Shown piece by piece: positions 4,308-30,801 of a stretch of 30,801 nucleotides of DNA. Made by a program: the position numbers and the translations under genes. Position 1 is the stretch's first letter. Each line of letters opens with the position of its first letter. Below the pieces are notes generated by a model. It was not told the DNA's origin. It saw nothing but the letters and a program-made list of their open reading frames with translations, and made no database searches. This DNA comes from a virus: the IMG/VR virus record IMGVR_UViG_3300034073_003124, positions 1 through 30,801 of that record. One strand, written 5' to 3'.

Positions 4308-4772
4308 ATGGATATCGAAGAAATTGGTTCTATGTGGTACGAAGACACATACATCAAGCAAGAGAAACTGCACGAAGAATCGTTGAAGATTCCGATGTTG
4401 CATCACAAGTATTTGATGTTGTATATGGAAGAGAAAACTCGTTTGAACAAACTGACTGTTGATTTAGACAAATTTGAATCAATGCTCGAAGAGTATATAT
4501 TGAACTCTCTGAGCCCAGAAGACCACGACAAATTCGAAGAGTTGGCAAAGAAGAAAAACATTGTCTTGCCAGATCCGAACAAAAAAGTTCTGAGAACCGA
4601 CATCAAGAAAAAAGTTGAATCGAACTCGTATGTGATTCAACAGAAATTGAAAATGGTCGAATGCCAAGACAAGATCGAGATGCTCAAGATGATTCTTGAT
4701 CAGATCAAGAACAGATCGTTCCAGATTCGAGATGCAATCTCGTTCATCCAGTTCCAGGCTGGTGGGCGCTAA
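4308..4772 (+). CDS. uvsY: UvsY-like recombination mediator
   Basis: A 154-residue, highly charged helical protein. T4 UvsY (137 residues) helps load the UvsX recombinase onto single-stranded DNA coated with gp32. The identification rests on length, helical character and the C-terminus: KNRSFQIRDAISFIQFQAGGR corresponds closely to the KSRGFAIKHIQDMRAFEAGK end of T4 UvsY as I remember it. The KVLRTDIKKKVESNS segment also aligns with the T4 middle. The start has GAGAGGTTGTC before ATG. Context agrees, since UvsW, a recombination helicase that neighbours uvsY in T4, lies 2.8 kb downstream. The intervening cassette genes are therefore likely insertions into an ancestral recombination cluster. Confidence 0.85.
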   Translation: MDIEEIGSMWYEDTYIKQEKLHEESLKIPMLHHKYLMLYMEEKTRLNKLTVDLDKFESMLEEYILNSLSPEDHDKFEELAKKKNIVLPDPNKKVLRTDIKKKVESNSYVIQQKLKMVECQDKIEMLKMILDQIKNRSFQIRDAISFIQFQAGGR

Positions 4773-4775
4773 ATA
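4769..4775 (+). promoter_or_regulatory. candidate late promoter CTAAATA for the cassette locus
   Basis: CTAAATA overlaps the uvsY stop codon and is followed by further A/T-rich AAATAAATAATCC. It ends 29 bases before the first cassette start at 4805. The same heptamer precedes gp22, gp23 and the 14385 gene, which supports late expression of the cassettes together with the head genes. Confidence 0.6.
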
Positions 4776-4804
4776 AAAATAAATAATCCAGATAGGAGAC
4801 TATA

Positions 4805-5164
4805 ATGAGACACTTACTAGAAGAAGCTGCAGAAAGATTTGTTTTGAGTGAGTCAAATCCAAAAAGAAAATTGGAACACAAAAGAAGACAAAATGCTATA
4901 AAACACCATACTACTACAGCAGATATACACATAGAAGACAGAGAAGAAGCACCAGAACACGCAAAGGGAGAAAGAGAAGCAGCAACTCGCGCAGCTGATG
5001 CTAATCGCCAAGCTGTTTCTGACATAAAAAAACATGGTATAGATTCCCCACAAGCTAGGAAATCTAGGGTGAAGGCTAAAGATCTATCAGACGAACATAG
5101 AATCAAACAAGAAGATAGATGGGATCGAGAACAACAAGATGAATGGAATGAACATTATCATTAA
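4805..5164 (+). CDS. putative internal head protein, leader cassette 1
   Basis: A 119-residue protein whose first 11 residues, MRHLLEEAAER, are shared exactly with the next two genes; the rest is unrelated to them. The leader resembles T4 capsid-targeting sequences, where gp21 cleaves after (L/I)-x-E; LEE|A at residues 5-7 and LSE|S at 14-16 are possible sites. The body is very hydrophilic, rich in Lys, Arg, Glu and Ala, and probably helical (EHAKGEREAATRAADANRQ), like other small packaged proteins. The ribosome site is TAGGAGACTATA. An injected role (host takeover or anti-restriction, as T4 IPI) is inference from the leader and the late promoter. No payload family is recognised. Confidence 0.75.
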   Translation: MRHLLEEAAERFVLSESNPKRKLEHKRRQNAIKHHTTTADIHIEDREEAPEHAKGEREAATRAADANRQAVSDIKKHGIDSPQARKSRVKAKDLSDEHRIKQEDRWDREQQDEWNEHYH

Positions 5165-5170
5165 AATCCG

Positions 5171-5267
5171 TTAATCTTCTCTATCTTTCTCTACCAAGAA
5201 TTCAAAATAAACAACAGGAAAATAAATGAGACACTTACTAGAAGAAGCTGCAGAAAGGCTTTTTGAA
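5171..5267 (+). repeat. cassette border repeat, copy 1 (ruvC-tail relic plus leader)
   Basis: This unit begins TTAATCTTCTCTATCTTTCT, runs through the intergenic ribosome site, and ends after the leader-coding sequence of cassette 2. It is near-identical to 5546-5643. Its first 30 bases match the 3' end of the ruvC-like gene at 5994-6023. Confidence 0.85.
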
Positions 5268-5549
5268 ATGTTGGAAGAAGAAATTCTAACTGAACGAAAT
5301 CAAGAAAACAAAAAGAAAAAAGACTCTCTGAAACTCCAAAGAGTCGGGTTACCAGACCCATACGACGACAGTGTACATCACGATGGTGAAGAAATTAGAA
5401 CTATGAATGATCCTCTAGGAAAAAGAGCAAAAGACGCAAGAAGATCAGCAATTAAGAAATCGCTCAAAGATCCTAAAATGAATTCTAAAGATATAGATGA
5501 TGAAACTAGAAAGAATGTACAAAATGCTATAAAGAACAAAAAGCCTTAA
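5226..5549 (+). CDS. putative internal head protein, leader cassette 2
   Basis: A 107-residue protein with the shared leader MRHLLEEAAERLFE. LEE|A (5-7) or LFE|M (12-14) fits the gp21-type cleavage rule. The body is extremely charged (many Lys, Glu, Asp, Arg) with no hydrophobic core segment, so the mature product may be largely helical or unfolded, which fits a protein packed beside DNA and passed down the tail. The last residues KNKKP are shared with cassette 3, as is the DNA following them. The ribosome site is CAGGAAAATAA before ATG. Both flanks are repeated while the middle is unique, as expected if the body was swapped in. The function of the body is unknown. Confidence 0.75.
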   Translation: MRHLLEEAAERLFEMLEEEILTERNQENKKKKDSLKLQRVGLPDPYDDSVHHDGEEIRTMNDPLGKRAKDARRSAIKKSLKDPKMNSKDIDDETRKNVQNAIKNKKP

Positions 5550-5643
5550 TCTTCTCTAGCTTTCTCTACCAAGAATTCAACATAAACAAGAGGAAATATA
5601 AATGAGACATTTACTAGAAGAAGCAGCAGAAAGGCTTTTTGAA
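5546..5643 (+). repeat. cassette border repeat, copy 2 (ruvC-tail relic plus leader)
   Basis: This is the second copy of the 97-98 base unit at 5171-5267, covering the stop region of cassette 2, the spacer and the leader of cassette 3. By eye it differs at only a few positions. The matching 30-base segment at 5994-6023 is the authentic ruvC 3' end. Confidence 0.85.
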
Positions 5644-5997
5644 AAAGAAAGCCAACATCACATGATCCTTCTACCAAGTGGTACAATTTCTGTCAAAAAG
5701 GTTGGTTCTAAAACAGAACGAAATGAAGAGGGTAGCCCAAGTACGACTCACACCTATCATATCCACGATAGGAATGGGAATAAAATAGGCGAACTAACTG
5801 ATTCTATGGCGGTAGAAACTGGATTTCGTTCTGTTTCCGGTCACATACACGGAAAGCCTATTCCTGATCTAGATGGATATAAAGACGGTGGTGCAGGCGC
5901 TCCAGGAGCACTTCAACATTTTCTACAGAACACAAAAACTGGTAAGAAATTTCACGATAGAATCGAGGAACATCTAGCAAAGAACAAAAAGCCTTAA
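5602..5997 (+). CDS. putative internal head protein, leader cassette 3
   Basis: A 131-residue protein with leader MRHLLEEAAERLFE, the same possible gp21 sites as cassette 2, and the same KNKKP end. The body differs from the other two: it reads as beta-rich (MILLPSGTISVKKVGS, TYHIHDRNGNKIGEL), with several His residues (HTYHIHD, SGHIHGK) and a Gly-rich GGAGAPGALQ segment before a C-terminal helix. It could fold as a small enzyme or binding domain; I do not recognise it. The ribosome site is AGAGGAAATATAA. Its stop overlaps the stop of the convergent ruvC-like gene (TTAA at 5994-5997), and a terminator for this strand lies inside the ruvC coding sequence. Confidence 0.75.
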   Translation: MRHLLEEAAERLFEKESQHHMILLPSGTISVKKVGSKTERNEEGSPSTTHTYHIHDRNGNKIGELTDSMAVETGFRSVSGHIHGKPIPDLDGYKDGGAGAPGALQHFLQNTKTGKKFHDRIEEHLAKNKKP

Positions 5998-6023
5998 TCT
6001 TCTCTAGCTTTCTCTGCCAAGAA
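5994..6023 (+). repeat. source copy of the cassette border (3' end of ruvC-like gene)
   Basis: TTAATCTTCTCTAGCTTTCT and the following 10 bases encode, on the minus strand, the last ten codons of the resolvase (FLAEKARED and stop). Degenerate copies follow cassette 1 (5171) and cassette 2 (5546), where they no longer encode a resolvase. Confidence 0.85.
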
Positions 6024-6542
6024 AAAGGCGTCGACCAAGTCTGAAACTGGGTTTGACGCCTTTTTTGTTCCTAGAAGAAGTTTCATGTCAAAGTGTTTGC
6101 TCATGAAAGAATCGTGCATCGCTTCTTTGTCAGAGTTTCCCTTTCCTGTTGCGAACTTCTTGAGTGTTGTCGGAGGGATCGTCGAATATCTGTATCCTTC
6201 CTTCCAGAGTTTATGCTTCAACAATCCACCATTTTCTGCAATGTCAAAGCATCTGCCAGAAGCACTTCCGAAAGAATATCCTTCGATTAGAACGTGATCT
6301 ACGTCAGAACTTTCTCCTGCGTAGTTTTTGATGATGCCGAGGGTCCATCCAGCAAGTTTGTCGTGTCGCTCTTGCTCACACGAATACACTGGATAGTCAA
6401 AAAGAAAAATCTTGAAGTTGTCCTTCTGATAAGTTCCATCCATCTTCTTGCTTCCAAATCCATAGAGACGGACTTCCTTGTCCGTCAAGATACAGATTCC
6501 AGGAGAAGTCAACGAATAGTCGATTCCAACTGTCGTTTTCAT
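5994..6542 (-). CDS. RuvC-like Holliday junction resolvase
   Basis: A 182-residue RNase H-fold nuclease of the RuvC type, expected to cut four-way or branched DNA during recombination and before packaging. Acidic active-site residues are visible: D8 in VGIDYSLTSPG, E87 in VLIEGYSFG, and D168/D171 in SDLVDAFFLA. The KKFATGKGNSDKEAM stretch (128-142) matches the Lys-rich segment before the last acidic motif in RuvC proteins. I chose the ATG at 6542 because it overlaps the upstream stop (ATGA); a longer reading from 6587 would add a basic stretch inside the upstream gene. It is last in the phoH - zinc ribbon - ruvC operon. Its final ten codons recur as relics in the cassette locus. Confidence 0.85.
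   Translation of the reverse strand: MKTTVGIDYSLTSPGICILTDKEVRLYGFGSKKMDGTYQKDNFKIFLFDYPVYSCEQERHDKLAGWTLGIIKNYAGESSDVDHVLIEGYSFGSASGRCFDIAENGGLLKHKLWKEGYRYSTIPPTTLKKFATGKGNSDKEAMHDSFMSKHFDMKLLLGTKKASNPVSDLVDAFFLAEKARED
6022..6066 (+). terminator. terminator of the cassette locus, inside ruvC
   Basis: AAAAAGGCGTC (6022-6032) pairs with GACGCCTTTTTT (6055-6066), with further GACC/GGGT-type pairing inside. This is a strong rho-independent shape on the plus strand just after cassette 3. The same bases code for the end of the resolvase on the minus strand, including its SDLVDAFF active-site segment. Confidence 0.75.
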
Positions 6543-14384: not shown

Positions 14385-14918
14385 ATGAAAAGTTTTGTAG
14401 AAACATCTGACTCTCCATATCAGTTCAAGAAACTGATCGAGTCTACTTTGATGGAAAAGGCGCATAGGATTCTTTCCAACCAACAGTTCCAACAAGCCGC
14501 TGCGCTCGGGATGTTGGAGTATTGTGACGAACCAGACCAACAGAAACCGCAACTTGATTTCCACAAATTGATCAAGATGTTTTCTAACATTTCTGTTACT
14601 GATGATTTTGGAACCCATTCTTCTAAGGTCGTTGATAGACTTGATACCCATGCCGAAGAAGACGACGAGGAGTTCTTGAAAGCGTATAAAAAAGCTATTG
14701 GGCATGACCTACACAAAGACCCAGATTTTGCGCATTTCTTCGAGAGCGCCCAGCTAGACGAAGTCCACCCAGGATTCCAAGGGGAAAAAATTCCCCCAAA
14801 AAGAATACCAAGCGGAAAAGAAGTTGCTCCAAAAAGGGTCAACCCATTCCTTGGCAACAGAAAACAAATAACTCCTTCTGCTTCTTCGAAAACAAATTAT
14901 GGGATTGGGAGAAAATAA
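14385..14918 (+). CDS. prohead core protein candidate (gp68 position)
   Basis: A 177-residue, largely helical charged protein that sits where T4 has the core protein gp68, directly before gp21. The start MKSFVETSDSPYQF has AGGAACAT ahead. An LME|K at residues 22-24 fits the gp21 cleavage rule, as expected for a core component processed during maturation. The middle is acidic (HAEEDDEEFLKAYKKA) and the end is basic and Pro-rich (IPPKRIPSGKEVAPKRV), probably disordered. Its TAA overlaps the gp21 ATG (TAATG). The assignment is by position and composition, not by clear sequence similarity. Confidence 0.6.
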   Translation: MKSFVETSDSPYQFKKLIESTLMEKAHRILSNQQFQQAAALGMLEYCDEPDQQKPQLDFHKLIKMFSNISVTDDFGTHSSKVVDRLDTHAEEDDEEFLKAYKKAIGHDLHKDPDFAHFFESAQLDEVHPGFQGEKIPPKRIPSGKEVAPKRVNPFLGNRKQITPSASSKTNYGIGRK

Positions 14919-15562
14919 TGCTTCTAGTAGAATCTAACTACGACACTCAAGTCCTCACCGAAGGCGAAGGTTCTGGTAAAAACTGGAAGTTGAAAGGAAT
15001 TTTCATCCAAACAGAATGCGTCAACAGAAACCGCAGAATCTATCCAAACGCAGTTGTTGATCCACAAATTAACAGCTACATCAATGAGTATGTCAATTCA
15101 TCTCGTGCACTCGGCGAACTTGACCACCCAGAAACTCCGAGGATCGATTTGAACAGAGCTTCGCATCTAATCACTTCTATCTCTAGGGACGGAAATAATT
15201 ACATCGGCGAAGCCAGGATTCTAAACACTCCAACAGGTCAACTGGTTCGTGGTCTTCTAGAAGGTGGAGTCAAACTTGGTGTTTCTTCGAGAGGAATGGG
15301 TTCGGTGCAAGCCGATAGAAACGGTGTCAATGTAGTCCAAGGTGATTTCAAACTTGCTACCGTTGACATCGTATATCAACCTTCCGCTCCAGATGCTTTC
15401 GTTGAAGGATTGATGGAGAACGCTCAATTTGTGTGGGGTTCTGTTCACGAAGATGTTGAGTTTGTCCAATCACTCAAAGAGAAGATTCAAGAGACGAAGC
15501 TTGTTGACCTACAGGAAGCAAAGCTAGAGGCTTTCAGAGCGTTTGTTAAGAAATTTTCTTGA
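14918..15562 (+). CDS. 21: prohead core protease (gp21-like)
   Basis: A 214-residue serine protease; T4 gp21 has 212. It degrades the scaffold and trims capsid and internal proteins after (L/I)-x-E. Catalytic signatures are visible: GELDHPET with His70, and GVSSRGMGSV with the nucleophile Ser in SSR (residues 123-124). IYPNAVV and the YQPSAPDAFVEG segment near the end also match T4 gp21. Its ATG overlaps the upstream stop, so translation is coupled. This enzyme explains the short leaders ending in LxE or IxE seen on several other proteins in the window. Confidence 0.93.
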   Translation: MLLVESNYDTQVLTEGEGSGKNWKLKGIFIQTECVNRNRRIYPNAVVDPQINSYINEYVNSSRALGELDHPETPRIDLNRASHLITSISRDGNNYIGEARILNTPTGQLVRGLLEGGVKLGVSSRGMGSVQADRNGVNVVQGDFKLATVDIVYQPSAPDAFVEGLMENAQFVWGSVHEDVEFVQSLKEKIQETKLVDLQEAKLEAFRAFVKKFS

Positions 15563-15605: not shown

Positions 15606-17405
15606 ATGAACATTGAAGAAATGTACCGCAAGATGAAGCTGGACGAGGCTGCTGGTAGCCGTTCTGCGGATTCTGACGTTGGTGATGCAAAGTCACCAGG
15701 AAAACTAAAAGACCAATTCACTTCTCAGCCTGGTGCAGCTAAACTTGGTGCAAAAGTTGCTGGCGGCGAAACTTCCCCAGAGAAACTTTCTGCTGATGGC
15801 AAACAGGCTTCTGAGCCAGGTTCTGCTGACGCTGGTCGTGCTTCTGTCAAAGGCAGAACAATGCCTTCTCACGATGGCAATCAAATACACGAACCAAATG
15901 CAGAAAACGCTGGTGTTTCTGTTTCTGACGTCCATGGTGACCAAGGCGAATTTGACGGCAAGCCAAAGACTGTTGTTTCTGACATGACCAAGAAAGATCT
16001 TGGTGAAGCTAGTTTGAATGAGAAAGGTGTTACTGGTTCGAATGGTATGCACACTAGCGCAGCAGTAGGAACAGTTCATAAACCTACAACCCCTCCTGGG
16101 AAAAAGCCTGAAGTTGGTGTACCCCATAAAGATCATGGTGGTGGAACTGTTACTCATTACCCAAAACTACCACAAAAAGCAAAGAAAGATGTTCCGCAAT
16201 CACACAAGCCTTCTGGTATGTTGGGCAAGATTAAGAGTGGAATTAAGAGTGCTTTGAGAATTGACAAAGCTTCTGTAGAAGAATTCTACTCTAACTTCAT
16301 CGCTGAATACGAAGCAGTTCTTGAAGAGAACGGCATCAATGAATATGATGAAGAAGAAGCCATCAATTTCTTCGTAGAGCAGTTTGGAGATCTCTTTGTT
16401 GAAGCCAAAGATGAAGACAAAGATGAAGACGAAGAAGACGAAAAGGATGAGTCCGAAGAAAAAGATGAAGACGAAAAGGACGATTTGAAAGAAGCTAGAA
16501 AGGAGGACAAAGTAGGTCTCACTGCTGGCATGACGCCCGATGAGAAAAAATACCACCGAGCGCATCTTAATATAGATCCATTAAGAGCAGGAAGAAAAAT
16601 AACAGGAAGGGCTGGTAAGGTAGCAAAACCAAATCTTCCTAAGGACATTCTTCCTACAACAGAATCTTTCCAATTCCAACTCTCCGACCAACTTGGTGGT
16701 CTGCTTGAGTCCGAAGGTCTCACCGACGAGTTCAAGACTCAGGCAACCACAATCTTCGAAGCGGCTGTCAATGCTGCTGCAAAAGGTCACATTGAGTCGA
16801 TTCAAGAGCAACTCCAAGAGCAGTATGAAACCGAAGTTGCTTCTTATAAAGAGAAACTTGATGAGCAAGTCGAAAAATATCTTGACTATGTCGTCGAAGA
16901 GTGGGTCAAGCAGAACAAACTGGCTGTAGAATCTGCTGCTCGTAACAACGTTGCAGAATCTTTCATGGCTCGCCTGAAAGACCTACTAGAAGAACATTAC
17001 GTCCAGCTTCCCGAAGAAAAGGCTGATCTGTACGAAAGCGAAGTGCAGCGTGCGGAAAGTCTAGAAGCTGAATTGAACGAATCTATCGAGGCTCAGCGTC
17101 AACTTGCTGAACAAGTGAAGCAACTGAACAAAAAACTTCAAGTTGAATCGTTTGTTAGAGACCTGAGTGAAGTTGAAGCTGAGAAGATCCGTGAACTTTC
17201 CGAGGGTGTCGAGTTCCAACCAGAAGGTTTCGCGGCGAAATTGAAGACTCTGAAAGAGAACTTCTTCCCAACTCGCAAAGCAGCTAGTTCGATGATTGTA
17301 GAAGACACTCCAATCGTAGAATCTGCTCCAGTACAGAAAGTTGCTCCAGTGATGGACAAGTACCTGTCTGTACTCGGGAAAATGGAATCGTTCAGCAAGA
17401 AATAA
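15606..17405 (+). CDS. 22: prohead scaffold protein (gp22-like), extended
   Basis: A 599-residue scaffold protein, more than twice the 269 residues of T4 gp22. The C-terminal part, from about residue 353 (TTESFQFQLSDQLGGLLESEG), carries the conserved helical scaffold region with ATTIFEAAVNAAAKGHIESI, YLDYVVEEWVKQNKLAVESA and FVRDLSEVEAEKIRELSEG. The N-terminus MNIEEMYRKMKLDEAAGS has an LDE|A site at 12-14. Residues 20-220 are low-complexity Gly, Ser, Lys, Pro-rich sequence. Residues about 265-298 are a nearly pure Asp/Glu/Lys tract. The extra regions may be core peptides released by gp21. AGGAGACATTA precedes the ATG. Confidence 0.88.
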   Translation: MNIEEMYRKMKLDEAAGSRSADSDVGDAKSPGKLKDQFTSQPGAAKLGAKVAGGETSPEKLSADGKQASEPGSADAGRASVKGRTMPSHDGNQIHEPNAENAGVSVSDVHGDQGEFDGKPKTVVSDMTKKDLGEASLNEKGVTGSNGMHTSAAVGTVHKPTTPPGKKPEVGVPHKDHGGGTVTHYPKLPQKAKKDVPQSHKPSGMLGKIKSGIKSALRIDKASVEEFYSNFIAEYEAVLEENGINEYDEEEAINFFVEQFGDLFVEAKDEDKDEDEEDEKDESEEKDEDEKDDLKEARKEDKVGLTAGMTPDEKKYHRAHLNIDPLRAGRKITGRAGKVAKPNLPKDILPTTESFQFQLSDQLGGLLESEGLTDEFKTQATTIFEAAVNAAAKGHIESIQEQLQEQYETEVASYKEKLDEQVEKYLDYVVEEWVKQNKLAVESAARNNVAESFMARLKDLLEEHYVQLPEEKADLYESEVQRAESLEAELNESIEAQRQLAEQVKQLNKKLQVESFVRDLSEVEAEKIRELSEGVEFQPEGFAAKLKTLKENFFPTRKAASSMIVEDTPIVESAPVQKVAPVMDKYLSVLGKMESFSKK

Positions 17406-17478: not shown

Positions 17479-18801
17479 ATGTTCACAAACTCTGAACTAA
17501 TCAATAAGTGGAAACCGCTTCTCGAAAGCGAAGCAGTTCCAGCTATTGAGGATTCATACCGTAAAGCTGTTACTGCTCGTCTTCTTGAGAACCAAGAAGT
17601 TGCTCAAGCATCGCAGCGCGAAGCCCTGAACGAAGATAATCCTATCAACGTAACTGGCAATGTTGCCAAGTACGATCCAGTGATGATCTCTCTCGTTCGT
17701 CGTTCTATGCCCAAGCTGATCGCTTATGATCTCTGCGGCGTTCAACCTATGACTGGTCCTACTGGTCTAATTTTCGCAATGCGCCCCAAGTACATTGCAA
17801 ACGGTGCTCTCGGCGCTGATGCGTTCTACAATGAGCCAAACAGCCAGTACACTGGTGACACTCCAGCTGATGCTCAAGGTCTTTCTATCTTCGACGGCAC
17901 CTACGGTCAAGGTATGGCTACTGCTAAAGCTGAACAGCTAAACGCTGGTGGTTCTAGCGATGACTTCCAAGACATGGGCTTCGAGATCGAGAAAGTTTCT
18001 GTTACTGCCAAGACTCGCGCCCTTCGCGCTCAGTACTCGGTAGAACTAACTCAAGACCTCAAGCAAATCCACGGTCTTGACGCTGAAACCGAACTTGCTG
18101 CCATTCTTTCTAGCGAAATCCTTGCTGAAATCAACCGTGAAGTGATCCGCACTCTTGCCAAGGTTGCTAAAGTTGGTGCCCAAAACACTGACCTAGTTGC
18201 AACTGGTTCTACCTCTCCTGGTTGGGGTGGTGTGAACGGCGCTGGTGGTATCTTCGACCTTAACACTGACTCTAACGGTCGTTGGGCTGTTGAGAAGTTC
18301 AAGGGTCTAATGTTCCAAATCGAGCGCGAAGCTAACCAGATCGCAAAAGAAACTCGTCGTGGCAAGGGCAACGTAATCCTCTGCTCTTCTGACGTTGCTT
18401 CTGCTCTTGCAATGGCTGGTCTACTTGACACTGGTCGTGGCATCCAAGGTGGAATGGCTCTTGATGTTGACCCTGCTGGCAACACCTATGCTGGTGTTCT
18501 AAACGGTCGCTACAAAGTGTATGTTGACCCCTACCACATCGGTGAGAACTTCATCGTTGTTGGCTATAAGGGTTCTAACGCTTATGACGCTGGTATGTTC
18601 TACGCTCCTTACATCCCACTCCAGATGTTCAAGACTGTAGACACCAACAGCTTCCAGCCTAAGATGGGCTTCAAAACCCGCTACGGAATGGTTGCCAACC
18701 CCTTCGCTGAAGGTACTGTCAAGGGCGCTGGTGCACTAAACGCAAACGCAAACGTCTACTACCGTAAGATGTTCGTTCGCAACCTAGCTGGTTCTGCCTA
18801 A
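17479..18801 (+). CDS. 23: major capsid protein (gp23-like)
   Basis: A 440-residue major capsid protein of the HK97 fold; T4 gp23 has 521 and cyanophage versions are nearer this length. VRRSMPKLIAYDLCGVQPMTGPTGLIFAMRPKY matches the T4 VRRAIPNLIAFDICGVQPM core region. The N-terminal propeptide would be removed by gp21; L50-N-E52 fits the rule and lies at roughly the right distance before the core. Codon use is strongly biased toward well-used C-ending codons, unlike the genes that follow, as expected for high expression. GGAGAACGAAAAT precedes the ATG. A strong terminator follows. Confidence 0.95.
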   Translation: MFTNSELINKWKPLLESEAVPAIEDSYRKAVTARLLENQEVAQASQREALNEDNPINVTGNVAKYDPVMISLVRRSMPKLIAYDLCGVQPMTGPTGLIFAMRPKYIANGALGADAFYNEPNSQYTGDTPADAQGLSIFDGTYGQGMATAKAEQLNAGGSSDDFQDMGFEIEKVSVTAKTRALRAQYSVELTQDLKQIHGLDAETELAAILSSEILAEINREVIRTLAKVAKVGAQNTDLVATGSTSPGWGGVNGAGGIFDLNTDSNGRWAVEKFKGLMFQIEREANQIAKETRRGKGNVILCSSDVASALAMAGLLDTGRGIQGGMALDVDPAGNTYAGVLNGRYKVYVDPYHIGENFIVVGYKGSNAYDAGMFYAPYIPLQMFKTVDTNSFQPKMGFKTRYGMVANPFAEGTVKGAGALNANANVYYRKMFVRNLAGSA

Positions 18802-18896: not shown

Positions 18897-19841
18897 ATGT
18901 TATGTAATAGTGAATTCTCTTCTTGTGATGGAAGTAAAATAAGATACACGAAAGTAGGAATCAACAAAAAGGGTAAAATATTTTTTGTCGGAGGTCTTTT
19001 CTCGAACAGAATAATGTGGGTTCCATTCTCGATCCCATTTCTAATGAGCCACGAATGCGTTCTAGTTGATATAAGAGGTCACGGATTTTCTGAAGACAAC
19101 TCGAAAATAGAAGACGATATTCTAGATCTCCATGCAAAAGACCTAGCAGAATTATTTGAAAGAGAGTGCGATTCTAACAATAACATAGTTGTTTCTCTTT
19201 CTCTTGGAGCAACAAACTTATTGAAATCCTCAGAATACTTCAATTTTAGCAAGATAAACAAAGCTATTTTTATAGAGCCTCCAATAGTAACACAAAAAGA
19301 CAAAGATAATCACTTAAAAAATCTTGGGACGGTTTACAGCAAGATTATAGAATCGAACGTCGAAAAGATACAAAAACAAAATATGTTACAGATATTTCAA
19401 GAGGCTAATGCGTTCTCAGAACTTCCTCTTTCCTGTAAAGAAATATCCGAACAATCCCTAGAGTTGATCTTTATAGTTGGATCTAAAGGTCTCAGAACTA
19501 GATTCCCTTTACTTAACAAGATTCCAAGTAAAGCAAGAATATTGATTATGAAGACTGCCTCGTTTACAGAATATAAATTTAACACATACTTCAAATTGGC
19601 TTCTGCCTTCTTCTCTAAAGAAGAAGACTATTCAGAATACCTAAAGAACATGCAAAACACTGAGACCCATTTTTTCCTTGGAATGAATAACCATTTTTTC
19701 AACAACGAAAGGAACATAGAAAGAATTCTTTCTTCCAAGAGAGATTCTGTAATAGTGAAATTCAAAAAGTCTGGTCACGACCTACAGTTGAACGAACCAA
19801 TAAAATTCCTAAAAGAGTTTTGGAATTCAATAAACGATTAG
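18897..19841 (+). CDS. alpha/beta-hydrolase-fold protein 1, probably degenerate
   Basis: A 314-residue paralogue of the next gene. Shared anchors are DGSKIRY, WVPF, DIRGHGFSE and the ending KSGHDLQLNEPIKFLKEF. In the alpha/beta-hydrolase plan the nucleophile elbow is SLSLG (100-104, Ser102) and the last His is H294. Two features look impaired: the oxyanion HG pair is replaced by GG (residues 32-33), and no clear acid residue precedes the final His (GMNNHFF where the sister has VGKKNRVFD). It may therefore bind a ligand or partner without full catalysis. GGAAGG precedes the ATG. The DNA is much more A+T-rich than gp23, suggesting acquisition. Substrate unknown. Confidence 0.75.
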   Translation: MLCNSEFSSCDGSKIRYTKVGINKKGKIFFVGGLFSNRIMWVPFSIPFLMSHECVLVDIRGHGFSEDNSKIEDDILDLHAKDLAELFERECDSNNNIVVSLSLGATNLLKSSEYFNFSKINKAIFIEPPIVTQKDKDNHLKNLGTVYSKIIESNVEKIQKQNMLQIFQEANAFSELPLSCKEISEQSLELIFIVGSKGLRTRFPLLNKIPSKARILIMKTASFTEYKFNTYFKLASAFFSKEEDYSEYLKNMQNTETHFFLGMNNHFFNNERNIERILSSKRDSVIVKFKKSGHDLQLNEPIKFLKEFWNSIND

Positions 19842-19850
19842 GGGGGGTTT

Positions 19851-20792
19851 ATGATACGCAACAAAAGTTTCAATTCTTTCGACGGAAGCGAAATACATTA
19901 CTCTATAATAGGAAATGGGAAAAAGAAAGTTTTTCTCGTACACGGTCTTCTTACTGACAGATTAACTTGGGTTCCATTCGCACTACTTCTTAGAAACAAA
20001 TATACATTCATAACTCTTGAGGTAAGGGGGCACGGATTATCTGAAAACAATAACGTTACATCATATACTGGACACGAGGATTGTGCCAGAGATTTGAGCA
20101 TACTTGCTTCTAATATTCTTGATTGGAAAAATGGAGAGAAAGCTATAGTTGCTGCAATATCTATGGGAAACGCAATAGCTTGGACAATGAAGCAAAAATT
20201 TGGAGACGAATGGGTAGAAAAATACATTGTTGTTGACCATTCTATAAGAATACAAGTTCCAGGATTTCCTGAGTCAAATGTATTCACTTCAAACAGCGAA
20301 GAGTTTTGGGATTGTGCTAATTACATAGCTGAAGAAATAAGAAAAAACCCAGAATACTACAAAAGAAAGTCTCTCTCAGATACAAATAAAGAAATTATAA
20401 AGAGAGCGAAAAGAGCTCACCATCTTGTTGCAGTTGAATCTGTTGTTAAGGGTGGAAGGTTTGATTTGGTAACTAAGTTCCCTTCTTGGATAGTTGATAA
20501 TGCTTTTATGGTAGCAACTAGATTGTACTCTACTTGGAGAAGTCAGTTCATAATAGGTAGTTCATACAGGGTAAAATCTGACTTCCAAGATATAGTCTCT
20601 TCTATAACTAAGCCTATGATATTCTTTGTTGGAAAGAAGAACAGAGTTTTCGATTGTGACTGGCAATTAAAGTGTATAAACGAAATAAAGCCAGAATCCA
20701 AAGTTTATAAATTCGAACACTCTGGTCACGAACTGATGCAAGCAGAGCCAATCAAATTCTTAAAGTGTTTCAAGGAAGCGTTGGATTCATGA
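19851..20792 (+). CDS. alpha/beta-hydrolase-fold protein 2, active-site residues intact
   Basis: A 313-residue protein with the full alpha/beta-hydrolase set: VFLVHGLLTDRLTW with the oxyanion HG at 31-32, EVRGHGLSE, nucleophile elbow AISMG (Ser104), a probable acid in VGKKNRVFDCDW, and catalytic H293 in EHSGHELMQ. There is no signal peptide, so it acts in the cytoplasm or is packaged. Family members include esterases, lactonases and haloperoxidases, and the substrate cannot be read from sequence. It lies 9 bases after its paralogue, with a G7 run as part of the ribosome site. Its stop overlaps the convergent deaminase stop at the palindrome TCATGA. Confidence 0.82.
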   Translation: MIRNKSFNSFDGSEIHYSIIGNGKKKVFLVHGLLTDRLTWVPFALLLRNKYTFITLEVRGHGLSENNNVTSYTGHEDCARDLSILASNILDWKNGEKAIVAAISMGNAIAWTMKQKFGDEWVEKYIVVDHSIRIQVPGFPESNVFTSNSEEFWDCANYIAEEIRKNPEYYKRKSLSDTNKEIIKRAKRAHHLVAVESVVKGGRFDLVTKFPSWIVDNAFMVATRLYSTWRSQFIIGSSYRVKSDFQDIVSSITKPMIFFVGKKNRVFDCDWQLKCINEIKPESKVYKFEHSGHELMQAEPIKFLKCFKEALDS

Positions 20793-23758: not shown

Positions 23759-24955
23759 TCACCTGAAGTAGTCGCCGCCCTTCGCTGGGCGGATCCTTAC
23801 CACAGCGGCATCGGCTCGAGGCTTCCTTTTGAAGTAGGTCTGTCCCTTGATGCGGGTCGTCTCGTCCGAACTATCGGTTTTGTGGGAAACTTCTAGCCTA
23901 CAACCATCGTGTGGTGTCAGTTCTGAGTGGTGTCGTATTTTCGTGGGAGAAATCATTTTGTTGTTTGCATCAAATGTTGGAGTTTCCATCATAAAGTTTG
24001 CTGTGCTGACAGATTTTTCTCCGAATTTTCCTCTGCCAGTCACGCTCTCCATTATCACATGATTCTTTAGTTTAGGATGCGCATCATGGATTGAGCTAAA
24101 GATTTCCGCTATTTTGTTCCGTTTCTCCTCGAACTTTGCATTAACTGCATCGATGGTTTTCTTCCGAGCAGGTGTTGTTGTTTCTTTGCTGTCTTTCTCT
24201 AGGTAGTCCATCTGGCTCAGTTCTTTAGAGTGCTTTTTGGCTTCCTCTAGTTTTGCCAGAAGGTCTTGTCTATGAGCTTCTTTTTTCTTTTCTGAAAGCC
24301 CTGCATATTCTGGCTCTGTTTCTAACATCTTGTTGAGCGCATGCTCATGTATTGCGCTCACTTCATTGATAGAAGATGCACCAAGTTGAGCGCCCTCTCC
24401 TTTTTTCAGAGACACGTTTATACCAGCACCCTCTGCTTTTGGGCTTAGATTTCCCTTTTCATCGACGTGTTTCTTGTCGACCAAAGCTATGTCTGCCTTT
24501 GATGTGCTATCTTTTGCTCCGTGTTTCTTCCAGATGTCAGATAGCTTCCCTTTGGCTTTTCCTAGAGAGGCTAATATGTGACCGTTGTTGACAGCGTCAT
24601 GAAGATGAGTAGACTGAGAGACCATTCCGTGGATAGAATCGACTGCTCTATGCATTTCAGCATAATAATCGTCCGTGTCTGCTTTTGTCTTTCCTTTTGA
24701 TCCTTTTCCAAACATATCTGGGTGTGCGTTGTTGAAATGCAATGGATGGTTCTTGTCTTTCTTTGCCTTTTCTATCTCGTTGTGCATGTTTGTTCGGACG
24801 ATTTCAGAGCCCTTTTCGTTCCCGTAGTGTTGCATGACATTCCTAAGATGCCCTGTTTCCGTGAAGTGATTCCAAGCAGACTTGATCCCGACTTCGTATC
24901 CTGTCTGGGTGTTCATAGCCTCGCAAAGATAAAAGAATTCTCTGAATGTCAACAT
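23759..24955 (-). CDS. large putative internal head protein with possible nuclease-like core
   Basis: A 398-residue protein. The start at 24955 is supported by GATAAATA 38 bases upstream and by the leader MLTFREFFYLCEAMN, which resembles T4 capsid-targeting sequences (MKTYQEFIAEA) and holds an LCE|A gp21-type site at 10-12. Readings from 25075 would overlap the previous gene. The body is very hydrophilic and Lys/Glu/His-rich. Residues 150-200 contain SKADIALVD, then GINVSLKKGEGAQL; this D...SLKKG...QL layout resembles PD-(D/E)xK-type nuclease cores seen in other phage proteins (inference). A coiled-coil-like stretch follows (EKKKEAHRQDLLAKLEEAKKH). The best guess is a packaged, injected protein. 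Confidence 0.75.
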   Translation of the reverse strand: MLTFREFFYLCEAMNTQTGYEVGIKSAWNHFTETGHLRNVMQHYGNEKGSEIVRTNMHNEIEKAKKDKNHPLHFNNAHPDMFGKGSKGKTKADTDDYYAEMHRAVDSIHGMVSQSTHLHDAVNNGHILASLGKAKGKLSDIWKKHGAKDSTSKADIALVDKKHVDEKGNLSPKAEGAGINVSLKKGEGAQLGASSINEVSAIHEHALNKMLETEPEYAGLSEKKKEAHRQDLLAKLEEAKKHSKELSQMDYLEKDSKETTTPARKKTIDAVNAKFEEKRNKIAEIFSSIHDAHPKLKNHVIMESVTGRGKFGEKSVSTANFMMETPTFDANNKMISPTKIRHHSELTPHDGCRLEVSHKTDSSDETTRIKGQTYFKRKPRADAAVVRIRPAKGGDYFR

Positions 24956-28906: not shown

Positions 28907-29251
28907 TTACGTTAGGTGCACATTCTGTGAAGCAAGGGAGGGAGCCATCCTTGCAATCTTTTTGTCTGCCAAAAGACAAATTTTATCAGCTTCGTTTCTT
29001 AGATCAATGGCTTCTTTTTGCGCAGCAGCATCCCCTGGAAACGCTTTCGCTTGAATGGCGAATTCGTTGGCGTCGTCGATGTGGTGTGCGGCAAGAACAC
29101 AAAGATCGTTCAGGCGTTGAATTTCTCTGGAAGTTCTGGAGTCGAACTTCTTGTTTAGAATAGCTTTGTCTAGAATCTTTGCAATCTTCTGGTATCTTTG
29201 TTTTCTTGCTTGATTCTCTGCTTCCATCAAGAATTCGTTCAAGTGTTTCAT
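28907..29251 (-). CDS. putative internal head protein with capsid-targeting leader
   Basis: A 114-residue protein whose N-terminus MKHLNEFLMEAENQ closely resembles T4 capsid-targeting sequences (MKTYQEFIAEA), with LME|A at residues 8-10 as the probable gp21 cut. The mature part is a charged, Ala-rich helical protein (LAAHHIDDANEFAIQAKAFPGDAAAQKEAIDLRNEADK). Its ATG overlaps the stop of the 29251 gene (TAATG). It is the last gene of the late operon that begins at 30659. Injection with the DNA is inferred from the leader. Confidence 0.75.
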   Translation of the reverse strand: MKHLNEFLMEAENQARKQRYQKIAKILDKAILNKKFDSRTSREIQRLNDLCVLAAHHIDDANEFAIQAKAFPGDAAAQKEAIDLRNEADKICLLADKKIARMAPSLASQNVHLT

Positions 29252-29664
29252 TAGGTGGTCTCGTGTGCTATTTGTGTTGCTCTTTTTGCTTCTTCTGTTG
29301 CTCTTTTTGCATCTCTTCTCCGCTGACCTGAACCAGCCATTCCTCCGTTTTCATATTCGCTGTGGGCGGTTTCTGCGGCGCGATGAGCAGATTCTGCCTC
29401 TCTGTGCGCCTGAGCTATTCTGGTGAACATCTCATGTTGTTCAAACGAAGGAGTGTGTTTAGCTGCATGTTCCAATCCTGCTGCTGTTTGACCATGGTCT
29501 TTTGCTCTCATCCCGTGGTCGTTGGCAGCTGCACCACCAACTTTGGGATCCTTTGGTTTGAATTTGTCTTCTGCGCTTTTTCTTGCCGCCTCTAGAATTA
29601 TGTCTTCTAGGTCGTGTGGACCATATGACTTGAATTCTCTAAAACTGATTCCTGGTTTGCTCAT
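29251..29664 (-). CDS. putative internal head protein, Ala/His-rich
   Basis: A 137-residue protein. The ATG at 29664 overlaps the phospholipase stop (ATGA), with GTGGATTAAA ahead; a start four codons earlier is possible but lies inside the previous gene. The leader MSKPGISFREFKSYGPHDLEDIILEAARKS holds a FREF motif and ILE|A at 23-25, matching the gp21 rule. The mature part is Ala/His/Glu-rich with repeated helices (AHREAESAHRAAETAHSEY, RDAKRATEEAKRATQIAHE), similar in composition to leader cassette 1. Function unknown. Confidence 0.72.
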   Translation of the reverse strand: MSKPGISFREFKSYGPHDLEDIILEAARKSAEDKFKPKDPKVGGAAANDHGMRAKDHGQTAAGLEHAAKHTPSFEQHEMFTRIAQAHREAESAHRAAETAHSEYENGGMAGSGQRRRDAKRATEEAKRATQIAHETT

Positions 29665-30659
29665 TTTAATCCACATTCGTTGTTAAGGCAGTTTACTGAT
29701 TTAGTTAGGATGGCGATAGTTACAGCCATCGCTTCTGGGATGAGTTCCTTTGCAACACGATTACGAGTTTCGAAATCGGTCGAGTAAAGAGGCTCTGGTC
29801 TTGCATATGCTTGATTGGCAACAGTATGGATCAGATTTGGAATTGTATCCCTAGGATTGTACTTTGATAGAGCCATCTGAACTTTATTGTAATCGGCAAA
29901 CTTCTGTGTATAGTAATTGTCCTCGACCCATCCTTCCCATCCTGCGTGATGGTTTGCAGAAGTTGAGTTCGTGTGGTGTGGCTGGGCGGCATCTGTTGCG
30001 AAGTGTAGCGAGTATCCAACTGTCTGAAATGTTGGTTGTTTAAGAAATTGTCCGAACCAATGTTTTCCTGCGTTAGAAGATGGCTGCCAAGGAATGGTCT
30101 GGAAATCTTTGTATTGATCGTATGTAGAATAAGAACCTTGGCGATAGTTGGCTTCTGTTGTATCGAAGTCAGACTTCTTTAGTTCCTGGTTCCAGAGATA
30201 AACTGCAGCGAGTTTGTCGATGTCAAAAAACTCTCCCTTGCCGAGCGACCCATTAGGAGTGCGATGCTGATAATTGTATCCACCATGAGGGTTTCCGTGG
30301 GCGTCAGTTCCACGAGACATAGTCACAAAGTGGTGATATGCGTTGTATCCGACAATGTCATAAGCGAGACCAAAGACTGGCGCTTCCCAGTATCCAGTCC
30401 ACCAAAAGCCTAGATGTACGTCTTTGAACCGATCCACATCGAAACATGCCTGACCTAGTGCGTCCCCAGCCTTCGCTGCATCACCAGCAGCAGCTTTCTT
30501 GAAGTATTCGTATGCTCTCTTTTGTTCTGCTGTTGCGTAAGGAGAACCCATATACGCAAACGCATCCTGCACGATTTGCTTGTGGGTTGGCATCGACCAA
30601 CCAAATGCGTTAGAAGAAACTGCTAGAGAAACTGCTAGAGCGAGGCTCTTTACTTTCAT
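29661..30659 (-). CDS. secreted zinc-dependent phospholipase C-like enzyme
   Basis: A 332-residue protein with a clear Sec signal peptide (MKVKSLALAVSLAVSSNAFG, cleaved before W21). The predicted mature N-terminal Trp, followed by H26, is the zinc-binding start of the phospholipase C / P1 nuclease superfamily. Further ligand motifs: DVDRFKDVHLGFW (74-85), YNAYHHF (H109, H110), and SLHFATDAAQPHHTNS with H219, D223 and H228, then NHHAGWEGWVED with H237/H238 and E242. The pattern LHxxTDxxQPxH...H...WE fits the zinc phospholipase C family better than P1 nuclease, but the substrate is not certain. It would act in the periplasm or outside the cell. A late promoter lies 59 bases upstream, and two capsid-targeted proteins follow. 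Confidence 0.85.
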   Translation of the reverse strand: MKVKSLALAVSLAVSSNAFGWSMPTHKQIVQDAFAYMGSPYATAEQKRAYEYFKKAAAGDAAKAGDALGQACFDVDRFKDVHLGFWWTGYWEAPVFGLAYDIVGYNAYHHFVTMSRGTDAHGNPHGGYNYQHRTPNGSLGKGEFFDIDKLAAVYLWNQELKKSDFDTTEANYRQGSYSTYDQYKDFQTIPWQPSSNAGKHWFGQFLKQPTFQTVGYSLHFATDAAQPHHTNSTSANHHAGWEGWVEDNYYTQKFADYNKVQMALSKYNPRDTIPNLIHTVANQAYARPEPLYSTDFETRNRVAKELIPEAMAVTIAILTKSVNCLNNECGLK

Positions 30660-30801
30660 ACATTATTTCCTCTGGTTCTGATATTGTTTGCGTACAGGAA
30701 GGCTAGATCTACATTTTTATTTATATTGGACACGTCGGTCATAGGATTTGCAAGGATCGCAAGAAGGATCTTTTCGAACAGATCTTGATTTGTTTCTTGC
30801 T
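30656..30801 (-). CDS. C-terminal end of an unknown protein (partial)
   Basis: An open frame of 47 codons runs from the window edge to a TGA that overlaps the phospholipase ATG (ATGA). The visible end, DLFEKILLAILANPMTDVSN...AFLYANNIRTRGNN, looks like normal protein with a helix, and the stop coupling matches the style of neighbouring genes. The product cannot be named from this fragment. Confidence 0.6.
   Translation of the reverse strand, partial: QETNQDLFEKILLAILANPMTDVSNINKNVDLAFLYANNIRTRGNNV
30718..30725 (-). promoter_or_regulatory. late promoter TATAAATA for the phospholipase operon
   Basis: An exact TATAAATA on the minus strand lies 59 bases before the phospholipase ATG, inside the 3' end of the upstream gene. 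Confidence 0.75.

Follow-up and report, generated by a model that had tools for sequence, protein, structure and literature searches.

A tandem array of three genes with one shared leader, candidate internal head proteins of a distant T4 relative

Do three small tandem genes that begin alike and continue differently encode proteins that a phage packs into its head and delivers with its DNA? The question arises from a 30.8-kb stretch of viral DNA, which was analysed as a whole and is called the window here. A preliminary description of the sequence had placed three open reading frames with a common start between uvsY and ruvC, and all three were found at those positions; each starts with MRHLLEEAAER, to which B and C add LFE. 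Our analysis suggests, with a probability of about 0.6, that the products are prohead-targeted internal proteins trimmed by gp21 and that their genes form an internal-protein array in a distant T4 relative. The genes and their flanks are as follows.

4308..4772, + strand: uvsY, left flank of the array (Pfam PF11056, E 3e-12)
4769..4785, + strand: weak late-promoter-like element, CTAAATA / AATAAATA, before A and overlapping the uvsY stop
4805..5164, + strand: gene A, 119 aa; begins with leader MRHLLEEAAER; possible cut L-S-E/S (residues 14-16); body charged and probably helical
4805..4837, + strand: leader copy 1 (gene A), 33 nt, 11 codons
5226..5549, + strand: gene B, 107 aa; leader MRHLLEEAAERLFE; charged body, predicted helical; tail KNKKP*
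5602..5997, + strand: gene C, 131 aa; leader MRHLLEEAAERLFE; five predicted strands and C-terminal helices; tail KNKKP*
5994..6542, - strand: right flank of the array, towards which it is transcribed; RuvC-like Holliday junction resolvase (phrog_159, E 2e-30)

Judged by the codon usage of the core phage genes, A, B and C are each coding in their own frame and in no other, and a Shine-Dalgarno-like sequence lies 5' of each ATG (AGGAG in A, AGGAAA in B, GAGGAAA in C). The bodies that follow the leader have pI values of 8.1 (A), 9.3 (B, counted after LFE) and 9.2 (C); they are basic, modestly so for A, and in line with T4 internal proteins. The genes had also been called late-type, which the promoter elements bore out weakly: CTAAATA was found at 4769 and AATAAATA at 4778, before A, but no element of this type occurs directly before B or C. 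CTAAATA is also present 5' of gp22, gp23 and the gene at 14385. By eye, a terminator-like inverted repeat with a long loop (AAAAAGGCGTC...GACGCCTTTTTT, 6024-6070) was noticed inside the 3' coding end of ruvC, placed so as to end the array transcript.

The first 11 residues are the same in A, B and C, and B and C agree to residue 14 (LFE). Beyond MRHLLEEAAER, A continues with FVLSESNP, B with LFEMLEEE and C with LFEKESQH; a short N-terminal leader common to otherwise unlike small genes is present, as in T4-type internal proteins. At the DNA level, A and B are identical over their first 32 nt, and the first 43 nt of B and C show two silent differences (CAC/CAT, GCT/GCA) and no amino-acid change. 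The leader ends in L-x-E, which is LSE in A and LFE in B and C. This (L/I)-x-E motif, on which the preliminary description had relied, proved uninformative by itself: an L/I-x-E ending at residues 8-18 occurs in 26% of the N-termini in related contigs, and 34-75% of shuffled leaders also contain one. L-x-E alone was rejected as proof of cleavage because of this background-level frequency. For the T4 IPIII leader, ten residues suffice for head entry, with residues 4 and 7 important in targeting and residues 8 and 10 in cutting (PMC9026906). Position 4 of the array leader is the hydrophobic Leu (Tyr in IPIII), whereas position 7 is Glu compared with Phe in IPIII; the hydrophobic spacing differs too, and the cut motif falls at residues 12-16 rather than at residues 8-10 as in T4 MKTYQEFIAE. 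The T4 residue rules may not transfer, since the scaffold here differs from that of T4.

Around the leaders, three repeat copies were delimited.

5163..5268, + strand: repeat block copy 1, with a copy of the ruvC 3' end (about 5171-5200), the start region and the B leader through LFE
5538..5644, + strand: repeat block copy 2, with the B tail codons, a copy of the ruvC 3' end, the start region and the C leader through LFE
5979..6025, + strand: tail/ruvC repeat copy 3, with the true ruvC end (antisense) and the last codons of C

Block copies 1 and 2 are ~107 nt long and ~92% identical, as counted on the alignment, and end just past the LFE codons. Each internal spacer repeats the final ~30 nt of the converging ruvC and continues through a short spacer with the ribosome site into the leader; the true ruvC end (~5994-6023) is the third copy of the repeat. 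Genes B and C have a common 14-codon start and a common end, KNKKP*, with unlike middles, and the KNKKP* codons belong to the repeat that includes the ruvC 3' end. The DNA 5' of A, beside uvsY, differs from that 5' of B and C. Apart from the leader repeat and the B/C tail repeat, the window has no exact direct repeats of at least 25 nt, which indicates that the shared leader is not due to chance. Because a ruvC 3'-end copy lies in each internal spacer and the last codons are common, cassettes of the B/C type are bounded by repeats. These two-sided repeats are an unusually clear case of cassette growth, and the array is best read, from its sequence, as a tandem duplication of a leader-body-ruvC-end unit with bodies that were replaced or deeply diverged. 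More tentatively, the locus could be a recombination cassette, into which new injected effectors are slotted by homologous recombination at both sides; its body modules would sit between the conserved targeting leader and the conserved tail plus ruvC-end copy, and would at present provide three effectors of unknown fold against host defences. We regard this extension as possible, if doubtful.

The bodies had been described as having no visible similarity. This held for C compared with A and B, but A and B aligned weakly (local score 53 with BLOSUM62, a value that 1-2% of shuffles reached; E 0.013 in BLASTP) and have in common an exact in-frame 15-mer encoding QNAIK, at 4888-4902 in A and 5519-5533 at the end of B, which none of 200 codon shuffles reached. 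Homology of the A and B bodies is not claimed, because unrelated phage proteins score equally high. Searches found no relative of A, B or C in IMG/VR or in phage records, no relative of C in bacterial and archaeal genomes, no family for any of the three bodies in Pfam, PHROGs, PADLOC or NCBIfam, and no meaningful match for A and C in a sequence search of the PDB. Structure prediction, which had been proposed for the bodies, modelled B as helices only (pTM 0.33), with the leader as part of a helix, and C as five strands with C-terminal helices (single sequence, mean pLDDT 70.6, pTM 0.62); no convincing fold match was obtained for C. Foldseek returned no match to the C model at E <= 0.001, the best being at E 0.12 in the PDB with weak, unrelated matches, and T4 IPI* was absent among the fold-search matches listed, an absence that carries no weight against such a fold. 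CapZ was considered as a fold relative of C (VIA Z 7.2, rmsd 4.6 over 111 residues) and was rejected, since this Z lies under the level that the tool calls informative.

Besides the array, the window contains head genes and a further leader-like start.

14385-14918: candidate core gene
14918..15562, + strand: gp21 prohead protease, presumed processing enzyme (Pfam Peptidase_S77, E 2e-38; phrog_207, E 2e-67)
15606..17405, + strand: gp22 scaffold, T4-type, presumed receptor of the leader (Pfam T4_CASP, E 3e-55)
17479..18801, + strand: gp23, major capsid protein; its site reads L-N-E/D, compared with L-x-E/A in most relatives
28907..29251, - strand: 114-aa protein with the near-canonical T4 leader MKHLNEFLME/A (T4 IPIII: MKTYQEFIAE/A), sequence seen directly

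The genome holds both a gp21-type prohead protease and a T4-type scaffold, as identified with Pfam and PHROGs, and the gp21 homologue lies at 14918 as previously described. An L-x-E site precedes the mature gp23 start in all 26 gp23 sequences examined, that of the window included, where LNE/D is the probable cut site; this gp23 has at most ~60% identity to any record or contig among those listed. Right behind gp23, two adjoining alpha/beta hydrolase-fold proteins are encoded (18897-20792, +), an unusual location for such enzymes.

The protein at 28907-29251 (-) starts with MKHLNEFLMEA, which resembles the T4 capsid-targeting sequence more than the array leader does, and it is likely another internal protein; the start overlaps the stop of the preceding gene (TAATG). 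The region 29251-30725 (-) is a probable operon of a secreted-looking 332-aa protein and two following genes (ATGA and TAATG overlaps), with the late-promoter sequence TATAAATA ahead of it at 30725. The 332-aa protein has a signal-peptide-like start and by eye resembles zinc phospholipase C / S1-P1 nucleases; it had no match in Pfam or PHROGs. Another leader-like start, with L-C-E/A, was seen in a ~400-aa protein at 23759-24955 (-), whose likely start is MLTFREFFYLCEA and which matched no family.

We scanned 1291 ORFs, from T4 and about 90 loci of T4-like phages, for nearby genes that agree at 7 or more of their first 11 residues, close the leader with L/I-x-E and have bodies clearly different from each other. 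The scan picked out T4 ipII/ipIII and this array, together with a weaker pair in the related locus L084 (MKKFKQYITE / MYTFKQFITE); the remaining pairs were, by look, plain paralogues or chance. One gene of L084 (13323-13664) combines the leader MKKFKQYITEE with a body that by eye looks like an ADP-ribosyltransferase, as in T4 Alt. The pattern M-[KR]-[HTSNK]-[LFYI]-x5-E, which was set after the leader had been seen, matched 14 of 1276 gene starts, 4 of them in this window, versus 7 of 4881 internal Met. Its other carriers included T4 IPII/IPIII and genes just 5' of gp21 in L040, L059, L061, L068 and L074; leaders just upstream of gp21 in relatives read MKSFKDLVSE, MKNFKDLVSE and MKTIKTLMQE. Two genes with the leader MKHLYKILSE occur between gp23 and uvsY in L056, and are duplicates rather than swapped cassettes, since they are homologous over much of their length. 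A search of related phages for such leaders at the uvsY-ruvC junction had been proposed. The degenerate leader pattern had no exact match in IMG/VR, and the site was not conserved for such genes in the relatives examined: ruvC sits among other genes in the annotated phage records examined, and in L004 uvsY adjoins ruvC with no array between them. No relative with the same leader or the same bodies was found in IMG/VR or phage records.

If A-C are internal proteins, the short amphipathic N-terminal propeptide MRHLLEEAAER... would bind the prohead core and bring them into the head, and gp21 would cut A behind LSE and both B and C behind LFE, their L-x-E motifs. The small neutral-to-basic body left after the cut would enter the next host along with the DNA with which it had been packed. 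Tandem duplication would have enlarged the array, the unit starting just 5' of the leader and extending as far as the end of the converging ruvC; leader and tail would have been conserved, and the bodies between them exchanged or diverged. We infer the targeting, cleavage and injection of A-C from the layout of the locus, and a counter-defence role from the T4 precedent only. Against the internal-protein reading stand the background-level L-x-E, the Glu at position 7 and the differing hydrophobic spacing, the failure to find the same leader or bodies in a relative, and the absence of a late promoter directly before B and C.

A further counterpoint is that the leaders are identical at the DNA level, so that the shared start could simply reflect recent duplication. 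The common start would then be a footprint of that duplication, and the three would be small accessory genes that work inside the infected cell, with products that are never taken into the head. Consistent with this, the repeat reaches well 5' of the start codon, taking in non-coding and ruvC-derived DNA, chance alone often produces L-x-E, and the changes between the B and C leaders are too few to show selection at the protein level. We nevertheless consider it rather unlikely: the B/C repeat stops at the LFE codons, as that of T4 stops at its cut site; A has the leader of B and C but not their upstream DNA; and a similar-looking leader is present on another gene of the same phage (28907-29251).

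It is improbable that A-C belong with gp67/gp68 among the (scaffold-like) proteins of the prohead core, being targeted by the leader and digested by gp21 for head assembly and not for delivery. The nearest leader patterns in related contigs do lie just 5' of gp21, the place of T4 gp67/gp68, and the A and B bodies are charged, B being modelled as helical and having more L-x-E sites (LEE and LTE) near its start. However, the bodies resemble neither one another nor any core protein found, the prediction for C is a folded strand-rich domain, and the phage already has the candidate core gene at 14385-14918 and the scaffold gp22. We give very little weight to a role unconnected with the head, in which a common N-terminal helix would dock or oligomerise with a cytoplasmic host or phage partner and carry different effector bodies. 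Short proteins built in this modular way, with a single docking end, do exist, and the leader lies within a helix in the B model, but this explanation fits more poorly than the T4 layout, and no partner or similar module was found in Pfam, PHROGs, PADLOC or NCBIfam.

If the internal-protein reading is true, shared leaders ending in L-x-E are a way to find injected proteins in uncultured T4-like phages, and a leader search would reach injected proteins whose bodies match nothing known. Such loci would be a good place to seek counter-defence proteins, because T4 IPI inhibits the restriction enzyme GmrSD and IPIII is required for infecting E. coli ECOR17 (PMC9391042).

IPI resembles the proteins proposed here in being a small internal protein with a leader, and C likewise has a small predicted strand-plus-helix fold; no sequence match to IPI and, in the searches with the C model, no convincing fold match was found. 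The anti-restriction protein P1 DarB is likewise directed into the head by its N-terminus (PMC9024508), although DarB, likened here by description, is a large single protein of another head-assembly system. The closest parallel is T4 ipII-ipIII. As a positive control, the side-by-side genes ipIII and ipII were found to have one exact repeat of at least 12 nt, which is 47 nt long, covers the ribosome site and the leader ATGAAAACATATCAAGAATTTATTGCCGAAGC, and stops at the gp21 cut IAE/A; gp21 cleaves after L/I-x-E, and the propeptide of IPII is the same as that of IPIII (PMC9026906). Both loci consist of adjacent small same-strand genes with the start region and leader common in DNA, unrelated bodies and a repeat ending at the cut site (presumed in the array), in genomes with gp21. 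The comparison with T4 internal proteins made in the preliminary description therefore stands for the layout, whereas the leader is an inexact match. The array has three genes instead of two, lies between uvsY and ruvC and not between denV and e, and its repeat, unlike that of T4, adds a copy of the 3' end of the neighbouring gene and a shared C-terminal tail. Since its layout is the same as that of ipII/ipIII, the array is probably a known delivery arrangement in a new and larger form, a locus of a known kind with three new members.
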